Assembly (NCBI RefSeq): GCF_016925495.1 | Contig: NZ_CP070491.1 | Location: forward strand, 1,736,001-1,800,000 | Length of the DNA: 64,000 bases | From: Methylococcus sp. EFPC2 | GTDB lineage: Bacteria; Pseudomonadota; Gammaproteobacteria; Methylococcales; Methylococcaceae | Direction: 5' to 3' | Part shown: one piece after another, positions 6,571-61,082 of the stretch | Layout: every line of letters starts with the position of its first letter | Numbering within the stretch: position 1 is the first letter of the stretch | Program-made: the position numbers and the translations under genes | The notes under the pieces: generated by a model | Databases searched by the model: none | Seen by the model: only the letters and a program-made list of their open reading frames with translations | Told to the model about the DNA's origin: nothing

Positions 6571-8838
6571 ATGAACAGCCCGAAAGCCATCAGTCTCGAA
6601 CCCCGCAACAGCGGTTTATTGATCGAACACGACGTCATCCCGGCCCAGGTGGTCAGGGACGAACCCGGCGTCAGCATCCGGGATTACCTGGATCTGCTGT
6701 GGGAAGGCCGCAGGACGCTGGGCCTGGCCGCGGGCACATTCGCCGGCACCGCCCTGCTCTATTTGCTGCTGGCCCCGCCGACCTACAAGGCCGACGCCCT
6801 GCTGCGCATCGACAAGAACAAGGCCTTGCTCACCGCGCCGCTACGCAGCGAAAACAACAAAGCGCCCGCCGAAGCCGAAAACCCCCGGGCGGCACGCGAG
6901 GCGGAAATCCTGCGTTCCCGCTCGGTGCTGGGCAAGGTGGTGCAAAGCCTCAATCTGTCGGTGGAAGCCGAGCCGGTCCATTTCCCGCTGCTGGGCGAAC
7001 TGCTCGCCCGTCGTCACGACGCCCGCGACGGCGTGGCCGGTGCGTGGTGGGGCTTCGGCCGCTGGGCCTGGGGCGGTGAGAAGCTCAAGATCGGCGAATT
7101 CGTCGTACCGGACCGTTACTACGGCAAGGAATTCACCCTGACGGTGCTCGAAGGCCAACGCTACGAATTGAGCGATCCAGACGGCGAGACCTTGCTGGAA
7201 GGCCAGTTGGGCCAGGCGGGCAAGGCCGAGCTCAAGAACCAGGAGCCGCTGTCCATCCGCATCGACGAACTCAAGGCCCGTCCCGGCGAGCGTTTCGTCC
7301 TGAGCCGGCAGTCCCAGCTCACCACCATCGACAACCTCAAGAAAGCCTTCAGCGTGAAGGAAGCCTCCAAGGATACCGACATCCTCAATGTCGAGTTGAA
7401 AGGCCGCGATCCCCAGCAACTGGCCCAGTCGGTCAACGACATTGCCAACACCTACGTGCAGGCCACGGTGAACTGGGAATCGGCCGAAGCCGGCCAGAAG
7501 CTGGCATTCCTGGAAAACCAGCTGCCGGTGATCAAGGATCGCCTGGAAAAATCCGAAGCGGCCCTGAGCGCATTCCGCGAGAAGCACGGCGCGGTGGACA
7601 TCTCCACCGAGGCCGAAGTGCTGCTCAAGCAATCCGCCGAGATGGAAACCATAGGCATACAGCTCAAGCAGAAATTCGAGGCGCAGAACCAATACCTGGA
7701 AGGCGCCCATCCTGAAATGATCGCCACCAAGGCACAGATCGCCCGTGTGGAAAAGAAGCTGGCCGACATCAACCGCCGCATCAAAGACTTGCCGCACACC
7801 CAGCAGAACATGGTGAGCCTGTCACGCGACGTGCAGGTCAACACCGAGCTCTACACCCAGCTGCTCAACAGCGCGCAGGAACAGAAAGTGGCGGCGGCCG
7901 GCTCCATCGGCAATTCACGCATCGTCGACTATGCGGTGGTGCCCGAGAAGCCCAGCTGGCCCAAACCCTTCATCGTCCTGCCCCTAGCCGTACTCCTGGG
8001 ACTGACCACCGGTGCCGCGTCCCTGTTCATGCGTAACTCCCTGCGCCGGCACGAAAACTACCCAGCCCTGCTGGAGTACAAGGTGGGCTTGCCGCTGTTC
8101 GCCGCCATCCCGCACAGCAAGACCCAGCGCCGCCTGGCCCGGTCGGAAGGCGGCCCGGACAGCCGGACCGCGGTACTGGCGACGCGCGACGGCGACGACA
8201 TCTCGGTGGAGTCGCTGCGCAGCCTGCGCACCACGCTGGAGACCACGCTGGCCAGCCACGAGAGCAAGGTCATCATGATCAGCAGCCCGGCACCGGGCAT
8301 GGGCAAGTCCTTCGTGACGTCCAACCTCGCCAGCCTGCTGGCCAGCATCAAGAAGCGCGTGCTGGTGATCGACGCCGATCTGCGCAACGGCCGACTGAAC
8401 GAGGCTTACGGCACCGAACGCGGTCCCGGCCTGAGCGAGCTGATGGCCGGCGAGGCGGCCTTGGGCGACGTGATCGTCACCCTGCCCCATGCCGGCGTGG
8501 ACTTCATTCCGCGCGGACGCAACATCACCAGCCCGGCCGAGCAACTGGCCCTGGGCGACCTGGAGCACTGGCTGGACGAGATGAAGGCGTTCTACAACCA
8601 CATTCTGATCGACTCCCCGCCCATCCTGGGCGCGACCGACGCGGCCATCATCGGCAAACAGGCCGACGCCACCTTCCTGGTGGTCAAGGAAGGCCGCTAC
8701 ACCGCCCAGGAACTGGAAGTCAGCCACCGCCGCTTCCGCCAGGCCGGCATCAAGGTGCAGGGTTTCATCATGAACGACATGAAGGAAGGATCTTCCTCTT
8801 ACCCGTATTACGGGTATGCGTATCCGAAGACGACTTGA
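6571..8838 (+). CDS. Polysaccharide co-polymerase with tyrosine autokinase domain (Wzc/GumC-CpsD type)
   Basis: 755 residues. An N-terminal Wzz domain begins after DYLDLLWEGRR with a first membrane helix at about residues 49-70. Long coiled-coil periplasmic segments follow, and a second helix lies at about residues 464-490. The C-terminal cytoplasmic kinase has a Walker A (SPAPGMGKSFVTSN, residue ~571), a Walker A' (VLVIDADLRNG, ~597), an IDSPP motif (~681) and a C-terminal tyrosine cluster (YPYYGYAY). In this family, cycles of autophosphorylation on the cluster control chain length and export with Wza. I start at ATG 6571; an upstream in-frame codon at 6490 lies inside the repeat-rich spacer and adds no recognisable sequence. 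No separate phosphatase gene is seen nearby. Confidence 0.93.
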   Translation: MNSPKAISLEPRNSGLLIEHDVIPAQVVRDEPGVSIRDYLDLLWEGRRTLGLAAGTFAGTALLYLLLAPPTYKADALLRIDKNKALLTAPLRSENNKAPAEAENPRAAREAEILRSRSVLGKVVQSLNLSVEAEPVHFPLLGELLARRHDARDGVAGAWWGFGRWAWGGEKLKIGEFVVPDRYYGKEFTLTVLEGQRYELSDPDGETLLEGQLGQAGKAELKNQEPLSIRIDELKARPGERFVLSRQSQLTTIDNLKKAFSVKEASKDTDILNVELKGRDPQQLAQSVNDIANTYVQATVNWESAEAGQKLAFLENQLPVIKDRLEKSEAALSAFREKHGAVDISTEAEVLLKQSAEMETIGIQLKQKFEAQNQYLEGAHPEMIATKAQIARVEKKLADINRRIKDLPHTQQNMVSLSRDVQVNTELYTQLLNSAQEQKVAAAGSIGNSRIVDYAVVPEKPSWPKPFIVLPLAVLLGLTTGAASLFMRNSLRRHENYPALLEYKVGLPLFAAIPHSKTQRRLARSEGGPDSRTAVLATRDGDDISVESLRSLRTTLETTLASHESKVIMISSPAPGMGKSFVTSNLASLLASIKKRVLVIDADLRNGRLNEAYGTERGPGLSELMAGEAALGDVIVTLPHAGVDFIPRGRNITSPAEQLALGDLEHWLDEMKAFYNHILIDSPPILGATDAAIIGKQADATFLVVKEGRYTAQELEVSHRRFRQAGIKVQGFIMNDMKEGSSSYPYYGYAYPKTT

Positions 8839-55278: not shown

Positions 55279-55652
55279 GACTGATTCCTTGTGATGTCGA
55301 GTCGAAAGAAGCAGATTACTCGGAATACCGGCGGAAGACATCCTTGCGCGGCACCCGCGCAAGGCCCGGTCGAGGCCCCCTGCCCTCCCTCCGCCCGCAC
55401 GCGCGACCGGTTTTTTGTTACCTTGTACGGGGCTTTTCCGGCCCTAGGGCCGAGACGCGTTGCTATGCGTAGTTTTTTCTCTTCGTTTTCGCAGGCTGGG
55501 CTGAAAACATGAAGTACAAAGACTATTACAAGTGCCACTTCCGCCCCCTTCAAAGACCCTCCTAAACACTTGATTAGTCTGATGCATTAGCATCATCTAA
55601 CTTTCAAAAACTGCCTGAAACTTCCATAATAGTGCTGACATGGGATTTCGGT
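55279..55652. other. Boundary region between chromosome and phage-like element
   Basis: No gene. The left part is GC-rich with a perfect hairpin CCTTGCGCGG-CAC-CCGCGCAAGG (55342-55364) and the palindrome GGCCCTAGGGCC near 55440-55451. From about 55490 the sequence turns A/T-rich and leads into the integrase gene. An inverted repeat at 55580-55595 could mark a recombinase site. The element's left end probably lies here, but its right end is outside the window, so no direct repeat can be checked. Confidence 0.5.
55580..55595. promoter_or_regulatory. Inverted repeat upstream of the integrase gene (candidate att core or operator)
   Basis: TGATGC-ATTA-GCATCA is a perfect 6-4-6 palindrome 57 bases before the integrase start, in A/T-rich sequence. 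Either a recombinase core site or a repressor site would fit. Confidence 0.35.
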
Positions 55653-56882
55653 ATGTCAATCTGCAAACTCTCCAAGCCGGTCGTAAAGAACGCGGAATCG
55701 CCCCAGGTGGGAACGTCTGACCATAGGCGAGGCTACCGGGTCATCTGGGATTCAGAGACACCAGGCTTCGGCCTGATCGTCACCAACAAGGGCATCAAGT
55801 CTTATATCGTACGTGCCCGTATCAAGGGCAAGGAAAGGCGGCACACCTTGGGCCGATCTGCCGTGCTGGGGCCGGACGTGGCGCGTGACTTGGCTCGCGC
55901 CTGGCTGGGCAAGATTGCCGAGGGACGCGACCCGGTGGAGGAAAAGCGCCTTGACGCTGTTTCAGGCATCACGCTGCGGCAAGCAATGGAGACTTATTGT
56001 GCTTCTGGCAGACCCAGAGAAAGCACACAAGAGCTCGTGCGGGCGCGTTTCACCTCCAGGCTTGTGGTGTGGCTCGATCTACCGCTTATCCGCATCAACG
56101 AGGACATGGTAGAGCGGCGCTTTCTCGACATTGGCGAGGAAACTCCAGCCGACGCGAATATCACCTTCCGTTATTTCCGCGTGGTCTGGAATTTCGCCAA
56201 AATCCGCACGGAAGACAGCACCGGTAAGGCGATGTTGCCCGATTGCCCGACGCGCAGACTGACCAAGGGCAAGCTATGGAAGCCTGACATCCGGCGCAAG
56301 CGGGCCGTGTTGCCGCACCAGTTGCCGGCGTTTATCCAGGCTGTGGATGCTCTGCCTGACGAGAAAGCACGGCTGTTTTTCAAGTTCATCCTGCACACCG
56401 GATGCCGTGCATCCGAGGCCGCTGGATTGCTACGGAAAGACATTGACCACCGGGCCGGCGCGGTTCACTTCATCGGCACTAAGAGCCGAAGCAATCCCGA
56501 GTTCTCGTTTCCGGCATCCAGGCAACTGCTGGAAGTCATACGGCAGGCGGAAGAGGTGGGCATTGGGGATTACCTGTTCGGAGACCTGGCCGGCAACGAG
56601 CGGGACAACCCGTTCGCGCACGAGGTCACGCTATTGAGCAAAGCCTACGGCAAGTTCGGCCCGCACGATCTGCGGCGAACTTACATCAGCATGGGCAATC
56701 TGGCCAGCGTGCCAGAGATAGCCCTAAAAAAGCTGGTGAATCACTCCCAGAAAGCCAACGTCACCGCCGGCTACGACGCCGCGGACCTGGCCATGCTGAA
56801 GCCGCACGCGCAACGCATATCAGATTTGATCGAATCGCACCTACACAGTGCGGACGTGATATCCATCAAGCGGGCAGGTTGA
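55653..56882 (+). CDS. Tyrosine-type site-specific integrase
   Basis: 409 residues. An N-terminal arm-binding region (GYRVIWDSETPGFGLIVTN, KSYIVRARIKGKERRHTLG) resembles that of P4/CP4-type integrases. The catalytic domain has Arg252 (HTGCRASEA), His338 and Arg341 (HDLRRTY), His364 (NHSQ) and the nucleophile Tyr374, so it should be active. It would insert and excise the element. I use ATG 55653; a GTG at 55632 would add seven residues. It is the leftmost gene of the element and no tRNA is next to it, so the target is not a nearby tRNA on this side. Confidence 0.95.
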   Translation: MSICKLSKPVVKNAESPQVGTSDHRRGYRVIWDSETPGFGLIVTNKGIKSYIVRARIKGKERRHTLGRSAVLGPDVARDLARAWLGKIAEGRDPVEEKRLDAVSGITLRQAMETYCASGRPRESTQELVRARFTSRLVVWLDLPLIRINEDMVERRFLDIGEETPADANITFRYFRVVWNFAKIRTEDSTGKAMLPDCPTRRLTKGKLWKPDIRRKRAVLPHQLPAFIQAVDALPDEKARLFFKFILHTGCRASEAAGLLRKDIDHRAGAVHFIGTKSRSNPEFSFPASRQLLEVIRQAEEVGIGDYLFGDLAGNERDNPFAHEVTLLSKAYGKFGPHDLRRTYISMGNLASVPEIALKKLVNHSQKANVTAGYDAADLAMLKPHAQRISDLIESHLHSADVISIKRAG

Positions 56883-57377: not shown

Positions 57378-57477
57378 TAAATCTATCTCCACGCCTAGTC
57401 CGGCCAGACGAAAAGCGGACACCTTCACCGCCTGGCGTGGTTCCTATCTTGAAGGTCTGAGCCTGGAAGGGGGCGCG

Positions 57478-58113: not shown

Positions 58114-58162
58114 CCATCCTGTCAGCAACTTCCCGGCCGGGAAGTCCAACCGAACAGGATGG
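58114..58162. promoter_or_regulatory. Nested palindrome, candidate operator of the AlpA/Xis-like gene
   Basis: The core ACTTCCCGGCCGGGAAGT (58128-58145) is a perfect 18-base palindrome. It is enclosed by CCATCCTGT (58114-58122) and ACAGGATGG (58154-58162), another perfect pair. The right arm contains the ribosome-binding site and the first possible start codon of the following gene, so a bound protein or an RNA hairpin would block its translation or transcription. Confidence 0.65.
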
Positions 58163-58164
58163 CC

Positions 58165-58431
58165 ATGAAACGCTCACACACCCGAACGCCCCCAACCCCT
58201 GCGCTTCCCTACGTCGAAGCGGCAAAGATGCTTGAAGCCGCGCCCGACCTCGCCCCGCTACCGCCCGCGTGCGTGGCGGCGCTGCTGAACAAGAAGACCG
58301 TAAACGCGCTGGACAAAATGCGCTCACAAGGACGCGGGCCGAAGTTCATCAAGCTGGGGCATCGCGTAGCCTATCCCGCTGGCGATCTGCGTAAGTTCCT
58401 TGCCGGGCTACAGCGTCGTCAGGTTGCGTGA
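58165..58431 (+). CDS. AlpA/excisionase-like small DNA-binding protein
   Basis: 88 residues. The C-terminal part (LNKKTVNALDKMRSQGRGPKFIKLGHRVAYPAGDLRKFL) follows the MerR-like winged-helix pattern of AlpA/Xis/HTH-17 proteins, ending in the usual 'R-V-x-Y-x3-DL-x-(K/R)-(F/W)-L'. Such proteins direct excision or activate phage genes. AGGA stands five bases before ATG 58165; ATG 58159 would add two residues but lies in that AGGA. The nested palindrome ends at its start, suggesting self-control. Confidence 0.8.
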   Translation: MKRSHTRTPPTPALPYVEAAKMLEAAPDLAPLPPACVAALLNKKTVNALDKMRSQGRGPKFIKLGHRVAYPAGDLRKFLAGLQRRQVA

Positions 58432-58647
58432 GGTCGGCGCAATGATCGAAGCCAGCCAGCAACCGACCTACCCCTTCGACTGGGGCAAGCCATCGCGGCA
58501 GACCCATGCGCCGAAACGGAAATGGAGCCTGAAACGCAAAGCGCGCCAGGCCGCACGCTTGACGATGAGCGGCACCAGCCCGCACCATATACCCACCGCT
58601 CCACATGAGCGGTCCGGGATTGGCGTCCTGGAAGAAAGAGCGTTAAA

Positions 58648-58674
58648 GGCGCTCGTCACACAGCGTCTTTTTTT
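58648..58674 (+). terminator. Rho-independent terminator upstream of the C4-like RNA
   Basis: GGCGCT (58648-58653) pairs with AGCGTC (58662-58667, one G-U pair) around an eight-base loop and is followed by seven T's; three upstream A's (58645-58647) can lengthen the stem. It would end transcripts coming from the AlpA-like gene. Confidence 0.75.
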
Positions 58675-58689
58675 ACGCGCGGAATCTCA

Positions 58690-58770
58690 TCATGGTGAGC
58701 CGTGCGTAGGCAGTCGCAAGACTGGCCGGTCTCTTTCCCGGTACGCCAACCTGCGCACGGTTCGCCACCA
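58690..58770 (+). ncRNA. C4-type antisense immunity RNA
   Basis: A closed three-way structure is visible. The basal stem is 58697-58706 with 58754-58763 (CCGTGCG/CGCACGG core). Hairpin 1 is CAGTC-GCAA-GACTG (58711-58724) with a GNRA loop, and hairpin 2 is CCGG-TCTCTTTC-CCGG (58726-58741). Loop bases CTCTTTC (58731-58737) are complementary to GAAAGAG at 58813-58819, which is the ribosome-binding region of the next gene. ACGCCAA (58743-58749) is complementary to TTGGCGT at 58777-58783. This two-site layout is that of the C4 RNAs of phages P1/P7 and the CI RNA of P4, which block translation of a toxic or antirepressor gene in the lysogen. Confidence 0.85.
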
Positions 58771-58828
58771 CCTTGATTGGCGTCGAGGTGGGGCGATTGC
58801 ATCACGCAATCCGAAAGAGGTTCCAACC

Positions 58829-59110
58829 ATGAACACCCCTAGCAAGGGCGTAATCCGCCCGCAATTCCCCCGCCCCCGAGAACTTCACAGCCTGGAACGC
58901 GCCCTCAAGGCGTTCGTACAGGAGGCCCGTGACGTGGCCGATACCGCCTATACGCTGGAAGTCGATCATCATGGTCAACTGCCGCAATTGGACGATATCG
59001 CCGCGAATATGAGCGAGGCCCTAAGCCTGATCGAGCGGTCGCATGGTCTGGCGTTCGAGGCCTGGCGCACTGCTTGCGAAGCGGAAGCCGGTCACCAGAG
59101 AGGGAACTGA
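58829..59110 (+). CDS. Small protein under C4-type RNA control (Ash/Icd/Kil position)
   Basis: 93 residues, mainly helical and rich in Ala, Leu and Glu (SLERALKAFVQEARDVAD, IAANMSEALSLIERSH). No family recognised by sequence. Its position, directly behind a C4-like RNA whose loop pairs with its AAAGAGG ribosome-binding site (eight bases before ATG 58829), is that of the Ash, Icd/Kil or antirepressor genes of P4/P1-type elements; those block host division or lift repression. An in-phase start at 58442 would give 222 residues, but most of the extension is the RNA leader. Confidence 0.7.
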   Translation: MNTPSKGVIRPQFPRPRELHSLERALKAFVQEARDVADTAYTLEVDHHGQLPQLDDIAANMSEALSLIERSHGLAFEAWRTACEAEAGHQRGN

Positions 59111-59111
59111 G

Positions 59112-59348
59112 ATGAACTCGAAGCAGAACAAGCAGGCAAAAGACTCTATTGACCAAATGATAAGCAGCATCCTCGACCAGTACCCGCCGACACAGACACG
59201 ACACGCCTTACTCAAAAAGGCCCGGCGGTTCGCCGATGAACTGATCGGCAACGCGGCCGACGGCGCGCTCACACTGGAGCGCCATGAATTGGTAGATAAG
59301 CTGGTGGAAGCCTTTTTTGCCGGCGCGGATGAAGGAGGCTGTGCATGA
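59112..59348 (+). CDS. Hypothetical small phage protein
   Basis: 78 residues, charged and helical (NSKQNKQAKDSIDQMISSIL, ERHELVDKLVEAFFAGADE). No family recognised. GAGGG stands seven bases before ATG 59112. It starts right after the preceding gene and its stop overlaps the primase-like gene by four bases (ATGA), so it is part of the replication operon. Confidence 0.65.
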   Translation: MNSKQNKQAKDSIDQMISSILDQYPPTQTRHALLKKARRFADELIGNAADGALTLERHELVDKLVEAFFAGADEGGCA

Positions 59349-59878
59349 GGCCAGAAACGCAAAGGCCCCGTCCGGTCCGGCAACCGGACGAGGCCACATT
59401 CCAAAATCGACGACCCAAGTTTACCACCACCTCAAGCCCAATCGGCAATTTGCTGTCACGACTGGATGGTGTCCGTCAAACGGACCGCGAAGACCGCAAA
59501 TTTCTTGCGCGCTGCCCGGCGCACGACGACCGCAGCCCAAGCCTAGGGATTCGCGAAACCGACGACGGGCGCGTGCTGCTCAAGTGCTGGGCCGGATGTA
59601 GCTTTGAACAGATAACCAGCGCAATCGGCTTATCCGTGTCCGATCTCTTCCCAGTAAGACATGGGCGCGACTTCGACCCAAACGCACCCAAGCCGAGAAG
59701 ACCCAAGTTTTCGGCGTATGAGCTGCTGCCCTTGGTTATCACCGAAGCCATGGTATTGGCGCTTGCCTATCGTGAGCTCGCCCACGGCGGCACATTGTCT
59801 GACGCCGATCTGGAGCGCGCTGAACTGGCAGAGCACGCCGTTATGGGCGCGTGGGCGGAGGTGAAGTGCTATGGGTAG
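59345..59878 (+). CDS. Zinc-finger primase-like protein without a catalytic domain
   Basis: 177 residues. CPAHDDRSPSLGI and LLKCWAGCSFEQITSAIGL give the C-x2-H…C-x2-C zinc motif and flanking pattern of the CHC2-type domain at the start of phage and plasmid primases. Nothing like a Toprim or other catalytic domain follows; the rest is a short helical region that stops at residue 177. Normal primases of this type run to 300-900 residues. It is coupled on both sides: ATGA with the previous gene and an eight-base overlap with the helicase gene, suggesting a two-part replication protein. Confidence 0.82.
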   Translation: MRPETQRPRPVRQPDEATFQNRRPKFTTTSSPIGNLLSRLDGVRQTDREDRKFLARCPAHDDRSPSLGIRETDDGRVLLKCWAGCSFEQITSAIGLSVSDLFPVRHGRDFDPNAPKPRRPKFSAYELLPLVITEAMVLALAYRELAHGGTLSDADLERAELAEHAVMGAWAEVKCYG

Positions 59879-61082
59879 CGCGCTCCTAGAAAAGCTCGAT
59901 GCGCTGGCCACGGATGGCTCTAATCTCCCGGCATCGGTCGAATTGCTCAACGGCGCCGACATCAAGCCCGAGCCGATCCGCTGGGTGTGGCCGGGCTGGC
60001 TGGCGGCCGGCAAGTTCCACGTCTTGGCCGGCGCACCAGGGACCGGCAAGACCAGCATCGCGCTTGCCCTGGCGGCGACGATCACCGCGGGCGGCCGCTG
60101 GCCGGACGGCACGCGGGCCGCTTTCGGTAACGTCATGATCTGGTCAGGCGAGGATGACGCGGCCGATACCTTGGCACCTCGTCTGATCGCATCCGGCGCG
60201 GATATGAGCCGCGTGTTCTTCGTGGGCAGTGTCCGCGAGGCTGGCGAGTCCCGACCGTTCGACCCGTCGAGCGACCTGGAGACACTCACGAGAGCGGCGG
60301 CGAAGATTGGCGACGTCTCTTTGTTGATCGCCGACCCCGTCGTGTCGGCCGTGGCCGGTGATTCTCACAAGAACACCGAGGTTCGGCGCGGCCTACAACC
60401 GCTGGTAGACCTGGGCGCTAGGCTTCGGTGCGCGGTCTTGGGCATTAGCCACTTCACGAAAGGCACAGCCGGTCGCGACCCCGTGGAGCGTGTCACGGGC
60501 TCCATTGCCTTCGGTGCGCTGGCTCGAGTCGTCCTGGCGGCTGCCAAGCTGCCCGACGATCACCCGGACGGGCCGGGGCGCATCTTCTGCCGCTCAAAGT
60601 CCAACATTGGGCCGGATGATGGGGGGTTTCGCTATGACCTGCGCCAGTCCGAGCTTGAAGCTCACCCCGGCATATTTACTTCGTCCGTGCTTTGGGGCGA
60701 TGCCATGGAGGGGAGCGCTCGCGAGCTGCTGGGGCAGGCCGAGCAGTCGGCCGACCCAGCGGCGCGAAGCGAACTTGACGACGCCTTGGAGTTTCTGGAG
60801 AACCTCCTTTCTGATGGGCCTGTGCCGTCAAAGATCGTTCGCGCGGATTGCGAGGGAGCCGGGCACAGTTGGGCAACCGTTCGTCGGGCGCAGAAGGTTT
60901 TAGGTGTCGAAGCAACCCGCGATGGCGGGATCGGAAATGCGGGAAAGTGGACATGGAGACTTCCACCGAAGACGCCTAAGGCGCTCAAAGAAAACCTAAC
61001 ATGCTCACAAAAAAGCGTGAGCATGTTAGAAAAATCTGAGCACCTTAGGGGCGAAATCATCGGCGACGCGGAGGTGTTCTGA
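59871..61082 (+). CDS. RepA-like hexameric helicase (AAA_25 ATPase)
   Basis: 403 residues. Walker A LAGAPGTGKTSIALAL (about residue 52), WSGEDDAADTLAPRL, Walker B LLIADPVVS and ISHFTKGTAGRDPVERVTGS match the RecA-like core of RSF1010 RepA-type replicative helicases found in many prophages. The C-terminal ~120 residues include a winged-helix-like segment (SHSWATVRRAQKVLG pattern: GHSWATVRRAQKVLG). It should unwind DNA at the element's origin, together with the zinc-finger protein encoded just before. It shares one base with the next start (TGATG). Confidence 0.88.
   Translation: MGSALLEKLDALATDGSNLPASVELLNGADIKPEPIRWVWPGWLAAGKFHVLAGAPGTGKTSIALALAATITAGGRWPDGTRAAFGNVMIWSGEDDAADTLAPRLIASGADMSRVFFVGSVREAGESRPFDPSSDLETLTRAAAKIGDVSLLIADPVVSAVAGDSHKNTEVRRGLQPLVDLGARLRCAVLGISHFTKGTAGRDPVERVTGSIAFGALARVVLAAAKLPDDHPDGPGRIFCRSKSNIGPDDGGFRYDLRQSELEAHPGIFTSSVLWGDAMEGSARELLGQAEQSADPAARSELDDALEFLENLLSDGPVPSKIVRADCEGAGHSWATVRRAQKVLGVEATRDGGIGNAGKWTWRLPPKTPKALKENLTCSQKSVSMLEKSEHLRGEIIGDAEVF

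Follow-up and report, generated by a model that had tools for sequence, protein, structure and literature searches.

A C4 antisense RNA with target sites on both sides points to a probable C4-gated attenuator in a PICI-like element of Methylococcus sp. EFPC2

A three-way RNA structure lies directly before a 93-residue gene in the genome of Methylococcus sp. EFPC2, which raises the question of what RNA this is and what it could control. The locus was analyzed within a window of 64,000 nucleotides (NZ_CP070491.1, positions 1,736,001 to 1,800,000), and positions are given in window coordinates. The original prediction had taken the structure for a C4-type antisense RNA with two unpaired segments, each complementary to a site downstream. 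The search with the Rfam C4 model (RF01695) that it had proposed gave a match of 63.3 bits at 58688-58772, well above the cut-off of 45. Folding of 58690-58770 gave -48.6 kcal/mol (z -6.3), and 0 of 200 shuffles were equally stable. The three-way structure was confirmed by this fold, with a basal stem P1 (58693-58710/58750-58767) that extends beyond the 58697-58706/58754-58763 first described. The P2 hairpin carries a GCAA loop, the P3 hairpin has an 8-nt loop (58730-58737) and the junction consists of 7 nt (58743-58749). C4 RNAs are cut out of a longer transcript by RNase P and silence the gene that follows. GGT at 58694-58696 is found at the place expected for C4 processing, and by comparison with the annotation of phage P1 a processed C4 would probably begin at G58694. 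The locus is an ordinary member of the known C4 RNA family, and very probably a functional one. The RNA, its recognition segments and the sites complementary to them are as follows.

58688-58772, plus strand: C4 antisense RNA (RF01695), from the Rfam match
58731-58737, plus strand: P3 loop segment CTCTTTC, pairs with b1 and b2 (fold and sequence)
58743-58749, plus strand: junction segment ACGCCAA, pairs with a1 and a2 (fold and sequence)
58620-58626, plus strand: a1, TTGGCGT, complementary to the junction of C4 (sequence)
58634-58640, plus strand: b1, GAAAGAG, complementary to the P3 loop of C4 (sequence)
58777-58783, plus strand: a2, TTGGCGT, just 3' of C4 (sequence)
58813-58819, plus strand: b2, GAAAGAG, at the ribosome-binding site of the 93-residue gene (sequence)
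58829-59110, plus strand: target protein of 93 residues, predicted two-helix hairpin (12-member family, model pLDDT 89.4)

Both predicted pairings, CTCTTTC (58731-58737) with GAAAGAG (58813-58819) and ACGCCAA (58743-58749) with TTGGCGT (58777-58783), are exact, and C4 precedes the 93-residue gene with b2 at its ribosome-binding site, as had been claimed. It is a trait of C4 RNAs that P3 loop and junction both have complementary sites ahead of the following gene, with one of these sites at the ribosome-binding site. The account of two pairings was incomplete, since C4 is preceded by a second target pair, a1 and b1, and by a terminator-like hairpin. The same 7-mers stand there in the same order as in a2 and b2, with 7 nt between them. 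Neither 7-mer is commoner than chance in the 64-kb window (CTCTTTC/GAAAGAG, 6 occurrences vs 6.3 expected; ACGCCAA/TTGGCGT, 12 vs 10.7), so only the local arrangement is unusual. Mononucleotide shuffles of the C4 flanks placed both 7-mers upstream in 3 of 200,000 cases and both downstream in 2 of 200,000; all four sites were obtained in 0 of 200,000. A chance likeness to the C4 model in GC-rich DNA, with which the chance frequency of each 7-mer alone would agree, has a negligible probability and is refuted by the score, the stability of the fold and the four-site arrangement.

C4 RNAs are common among relatives, with an RF01695 match in 92 of the 201 genomes searched around this one, this genome included. 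From among the matches listed in these genomes 149 loci were fetched; at least two listed places, G040:C38 (later seen as L164) and G168:C124, lie outside this set. Three of the 149 were excluded for not folding into two hairpins, and seven more for an odd loop length, an identical core or flanks shorter than 200 nt; 139 loci remained. For each loop or junction, the longest exact complement was determined within the 200-nt flank of the same locus and, for comparison, within the flanks of the other loci. A complement of at least 7 bases was found for the loop upstream (b1) in 65% of own flanks vs 6% for other loci, for the loop downstream (b2) in 86% vs 6.5%, for the junction upstream (a1) in 92% vs 8.2% and for the junction downstream (a2) in 87% vs 7.0%. 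The observed mean was reached by 0 of 2000 permutations in each of the four tests, and all four sites are kept at 6 bases or more in 112/139 loci. After removal of similar loci 112 were left, with 105 distinct loops and 62 distinct junctions, and the values for own flanks were 62% (loop up), 88% (loop down), 92% (junction up) and 86% (junction down). The covariation that the original prediction had asked for among relatives is thus strong. Since a1 and b1 each vary together with the C4 of their locus, they are kept by selection.

The same is seen within this genome, which holds three C4 matches above the cut-off. Their P3 loops are TCTCTTTC, TCTCACTT and, in the copy L003, a short loop around GCTCC; the junctions, in the same order, are ACGCCAA, CCGCCAA and ACGCCAA (that of L003 is listed with one extra base). 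The copies differ in their loops, and each has matching target sites both upstream and downstream, the loop match of L003 being 6 bases long. Each C4 knows its own targets through two short segments, so that sequence alone may predict which elements silence one another. It was expected that C4 copies of one genome would avoid sharing both recognition segments. This was contradicted by the pair counts: a shared 7-mer in each of the two segments was found in 5/172 pairs within genomes, 5/560 pairs between genomes of one genus and 30/10,413 pairs between all genomes. Three of the five pairs within genomes are near-identical copies, and in the other two the match includes stem bases. In several places more than one C4 unit is found per strand within 1-15 kb, mostly with different recognition segments (G037:C110 at 3394, 6369, 13359 and 18112; G020:C173 at 19373 and 20389; G016:C1 at 3357899 and 3358882). 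Neighbouring units on one strand are possible arrays of C4 cassettes.

The element that carries the RNA was delimited by a perfect 23-bp direct repeat. It measures 9.1 kb, from 55510 to 638 bases past the window, and contains the following features in addition to those given above.

55510-55532, plus strand: left copy of the 23-bp repeat, putative att site
Contig C1:1800616-1800638, 616 bases beyond the end of the window: right copy of the 23-bp repeat
55632-56882, plus strand: tyrosine integrase (PF13356 5.9e-12, PF00589 5.8e-10, phrog_1 6.1e-40)
57388-57455, plus strand: int-alpA RNA (RF02996; 63.5 bits, cut-off 35.8)
58159-58431, plus strand: AlpA/excisionase-like HTH protein of 90 residues, weak match (phrog_66 0.0066, HTH_17 0.029)
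59345-59878, plus strand: DNA primase zinc-ribbon protein, operon (phrog_6088 9.4e-17)
59871-61082, plus strand: AAA_25 helicase-like protein, operon (PF13481 1.1e-36)

An integrase with att repeats and a primase-based replication module (phrog_6088 and PF13481) are traits of gram-negative PICIs, and both are present. A few unassigned genes and one protein matching phrog_6121, a virion structural family, complete the element. The order integrase, AlpA, immunity RNA zone, replication, late gene is that of gram-negative PICIs, as far as these are described in the available part of PMC10111431. The element differs from them in its weak AlpA match, for which HTH_17 is below the Pfam cut-off, and in the first protein after the RNA, which is not Bro by Pfam. 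By gene content and order the element can be called PICI-like, with a weak AlpA. The int-alpA RNA sits between the integrase and the AlpA-like gene, and is also found upstream of C4 in the loci L012, L016 and L019.

After C4 the element has a small protein and replication genes, with no recognized antirepressor. Pfam and PHROG searches gave no family for the 93-residue protein at E 0.1, no match was found in phage records, and a single-sequence scan of the genome contigs gave no relative. Among the 131 proteins that follow C4, three others match it at E <0.001. An alignment of 12 rows was made from it and 11 proteins of 89-99 residues that follow C4 elsewhere, with identities of 18-30%, and gave the confident two-helix model (pLDDT 89.4), for which no viral structure matched at E 0.001. 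By its position as the first gene after b2, it may have a role like that of icd of phage P1. The lack of a family and of relatives in the genome scan, together with a size of 9.1 kb with one recognized virion gene, would suit a degraded element in which the RNA and its targets are remnants left intact by chance. This is quite improbable, as the four 7-mers, the hairpins, the integrase and both 23-bp repeats are all perfect or open. A G.IRP-like motif occurs within the first 22 residues of 22/131 proteins after C4 (a loose pattern; L153 is doubtful). It is common to otherwise different proteins and is encoded in the window at 58829-58864; in this genome's three copies the DNA at the motif can, by eye, form a short GC hairpin.

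Since a1 and b1 lie before C4, the leader between a putative promoter and C4 was analyzed.

58559-58588, plus strand: predicted promoter (TTGACG, 18 nt, CACCAT), placed as in relatives
58595-58673, plus strand: isrK-like leader (RF01394 32.5 bits, E 4.9e-4)
58614-58631, plus strand: small hairpin presenting a1, arms 58614-58619/58626-58631 (sequence)
58638-58654, plus strand: hairpin H1, proposed antiterminator (58638-58644/58648-58654), first 3 nt in b1
58646-58674, plus strand: hairpin H2, proposed intrinsic terminator (58646-58653/58662-58669), with bases in common with H1

The promoter of this window has a good -35 box and a poor -10 box. Promoter-like sequences before a1 gave a mean score of 9.55 vs 7.71 for the control in 129 loci, with the -10 box mostly 33-40 nt away (112/129). 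A terminated leader RNA is predicted to start at 58595. The isrK match of the leader does not reach the cut-off of 50, though it is at the expected place, and c4-a1b1 (RF03163) gave 19.9 bits for a cut-off of 46.7 (E 0.24), which is not significant. The leader is therefore filed by its position and its targets and not by score; complementarity of a1 and b1 to C4 is a trait of c4-a1b1. The L003 copy of the same genome reaches 51.6 bits with isrK. A scan of 20 relatives placed an isrK match on the leader in 16, with 6 of them above the cut-off, and a c4-a1b1 match overlapping it in 8, with none above the cut-off. The 201 genomes gave a list of 150 isrK matches, and for 101 of these a C4 of the fetched set follows on the same strand after 10-47 nt; from the other 49, 20 were inspected and 18 have a C4 just downstream (one slightly below the cut-off). 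RF01394 carries no clan in the Rfam search results, though it overlaps RF03163 (clan CL00128) in the same leader.

The terminator-like hairpin is conserved. H2 is followed by a run of seven T's (58668-58674), and a run of at least five T's was found between b1 and C4 in 134/139 loci vs 25/138 control stretches further upstream; a hairpin just before the T-run was found in 123/139 vs 6/138. Further leader tests were performed on the 114/139 loci with a b1 of at least 6 bases and a T-run at a plausible distance. For H1 the 5' arm had to lie at the 3' end of b1; H2 was taken as the hairpin preceding the T-run. A looser definition of H1 was dropped, as many of its matches were H2 itself, and H1 was redefined for the scores reported here. 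The mean H1 score was 12.5 with the locus's own downstream sequence vs 8.2 with that of other loci, and was reached in 0 of 5000 permutations. Both hairpins were scored in 88/114 loci (26 lacked a score for one or both), and H1 mostly begins 2 or 3 nt inside b1 (79/88). In 84 of the 88 loci, that is in all except four, H1 and H2 use common bases and thus cannot form together.

In an equilibrium folding model, blocking of b1 raised the mean pairing of the terminator arm from 0.50 to 0.76 (114 loci), vs 0.58 when as many bases just upstream of b1 were blocked. Terminator pairing rose by more than 0.1 in 64/114 loci with the b1 block and in 39/114 with the control block. Results for single loci vary with the stretch folded. 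In this window terminator pairing went from about 0.33 to 1.0 in a shorter stretch and, with 20 nt more upstream, from 0.48 to 1.00 (control 0.33). In L002 it went from 0.41 to 1.0 in one stretch and from 0.80 to 0.98 in a longer one (control 0.94). In phage P1 the terminator was already dominant with b1 free.

The comparison of these sequences, together with a re-reading of published mutants given below, points to a C4-gated attenuator. A single promoter upstream of a1 would produce a transcript running through a1, b1, the terminator, C4, a2, b2, the 93-residue gene and the replication genes. Some transcription would cease at the terminator, yielding a short isrK-like leader RNA, and C4 would be released by processing from the transcripts that read through. 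At a2/b2 the junction and P3 loop of C4 would cover the ribosome-binding site of the 93-residue gene and stop translation. At a1/b1 of the nascent leader the P3 loop would take the first bases of H1, the competing H2 would form, and transcription would end before C4 and the operon. C4 on b1 would in this way favour termination. The free terminated leader, which has both targets, could titrate C4, and the switch would keep the replication genes of the PICI-like element silent. The same loop bases may both hide the Shine-Dalgarno site in b2 and start the terminator-competing hairpin in b1, a double use that is possibly new. The overlap of b1 with the antiterminator was not found stated in the literature searched, which comprised few subscription journals and did not include the original P1 and P4 papers.

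An explanation that needs only a2 and b2 is that C4 blocks translation as in phage P1, after which Rho ends transcription. a1 and b1 could then be a by-product of duplication or a buffer for C4, and the terminator would just set the amount of C4. This agrees with the P1 record, where a1 and b1 are termed 'putative' and a2 and b2 are given as the sites at which translation is repressed, and with the position of b2, 7-10 nt before the start codon in 112/131 loci with a start found. Selection on the upstream sites, which covary with their own C4, and the presence of H1 kept beside b1 argue against it. According to the available part of PMC4825925, CI of P4 causes termination through pairing with two sites, seqA on the upstream and seqC on the downstream side. 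An action on a2 and b2 only is unlikely. Action of C4 on both the leader attenuator and translation of the operon, with a leader that can titrate C4, is as a whole the best explanation and is considered likely.

C4 and CI are old paradigms of immunity RNAs, a1 and b1 are nevertheless still only 'putative' in the P1 record, and IsrK has been explained in print without C4 (available part of PMC4825925). The comparison offers a testable account of both the upstream sites of P1 and IsrK. It has already been reported, in the part of PMC10111431 that is available, that C4 and isrK profiles find relatives of CI and seqA in several gram-negative PICIs. C4 of phages P1 and P7 belongs to the same RNA family as the RNA of the window and has the same order of promoter, a1, b1, C4, a2, b2 and small gene; a1, b1, C4, a2 and b2 are annotated in this order in the P1 record. 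The P1 sequence also has the same two mutually exclusive hairpins before C4. It differs in having icd and ant after b2, where the window has the 93-residue protein and replication genes. In P4 a C4 match of 74.9 bits was found at 8420-8507 on the minus strand, which from the literature would be the place of the CI RNA, with an isrK match of 60.8 bits upstream. As in the window, both recognition segments have matches before and after the RNA. In contrast to the window, the distance from the leader to the RNA downstream of it is about 100 nt in P4 (about 15-20 in the window), and the P4 RNA is inside a coding gene.

Another related system is IsrK of Gifsy-1. Its record gave matches of 79.3 bits (isrK), 48.1 bits (c4-a1b1) and 69.0 bits (C4), all above the cut-offs. 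With position 1 at the start of the isrK match, a numbering that fits the AUGs at 107 and 119 in the available part of PMC4825925, a1 is at 26-32, b1 starts at 42, C4 is at 103-186, a2 starts at 192 and b2 at 223. b2 lies 13 nt before an ATG at 241, which is presumably the start of anrP. IsrK/STnc1160/anrP thus resembles the locus in its three Rfam matches and in having a1/b1 before and a2/b2 after C4. It differs in the antirepressor gene that follows and in its published model, a cis/trans switch of mRNA structure. There is an even chance that a single switch underlies P1 C4, P4 CI and the RNA that follows IsrK, with the leader as a C4-gated attenuator and the terminated leader, IsrK, as a decoy that carries both targets and frees the operon. 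If true, the cis-structure model published for IsrK would have to be replaced, and the 'putative' a1 and b1 of P1 would gain a function.

The published Gifsy-1 mutations G28A and G31A are located in a1, and C159U and C162U in the C4 junction. Basal translation, as given in the available part of PMC4825925, was 93, 218, 926 and 484 for the single mutants G28A, G31A, C159U and C162U, compared to 4 for the wild type. The matched double mutants gave 224 and 327, below the junction mutants and above the wild type. IsrK with G28A or G31A caused no trans activation (2 and 1; wild type 796). These data, as far as they are available, agree with the prediction for a C4 switch that has two target pairs; the double mutants do not return to 4 because a1 is restored and a2 is not. 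The authors explained the mutants by alternative (cis) mRNA structures, and suggested that STnc1160 may act like CI. The mapping of the isrK mutations to C4 was not found in the literature searched, of which coverage was partial, and its absence from print is not claimed.

Co-expression of STnc1160 made IsrK toxicity worse, which speaks against simple titration, and mutation of the orf45 start codon or an added stop reduced activation (same part of PMC4825925). Both effects are left unexplained by the C4 reading. In Gifsy-1 (L159), the C4 match overlaps orf45 as described in the IsrK paper. The nucleotide sequence of orf45 is conserved and its protein sequence variable, according to the available part of a review (PMC12197685), a pattern that fits an RNA rather than a protein.
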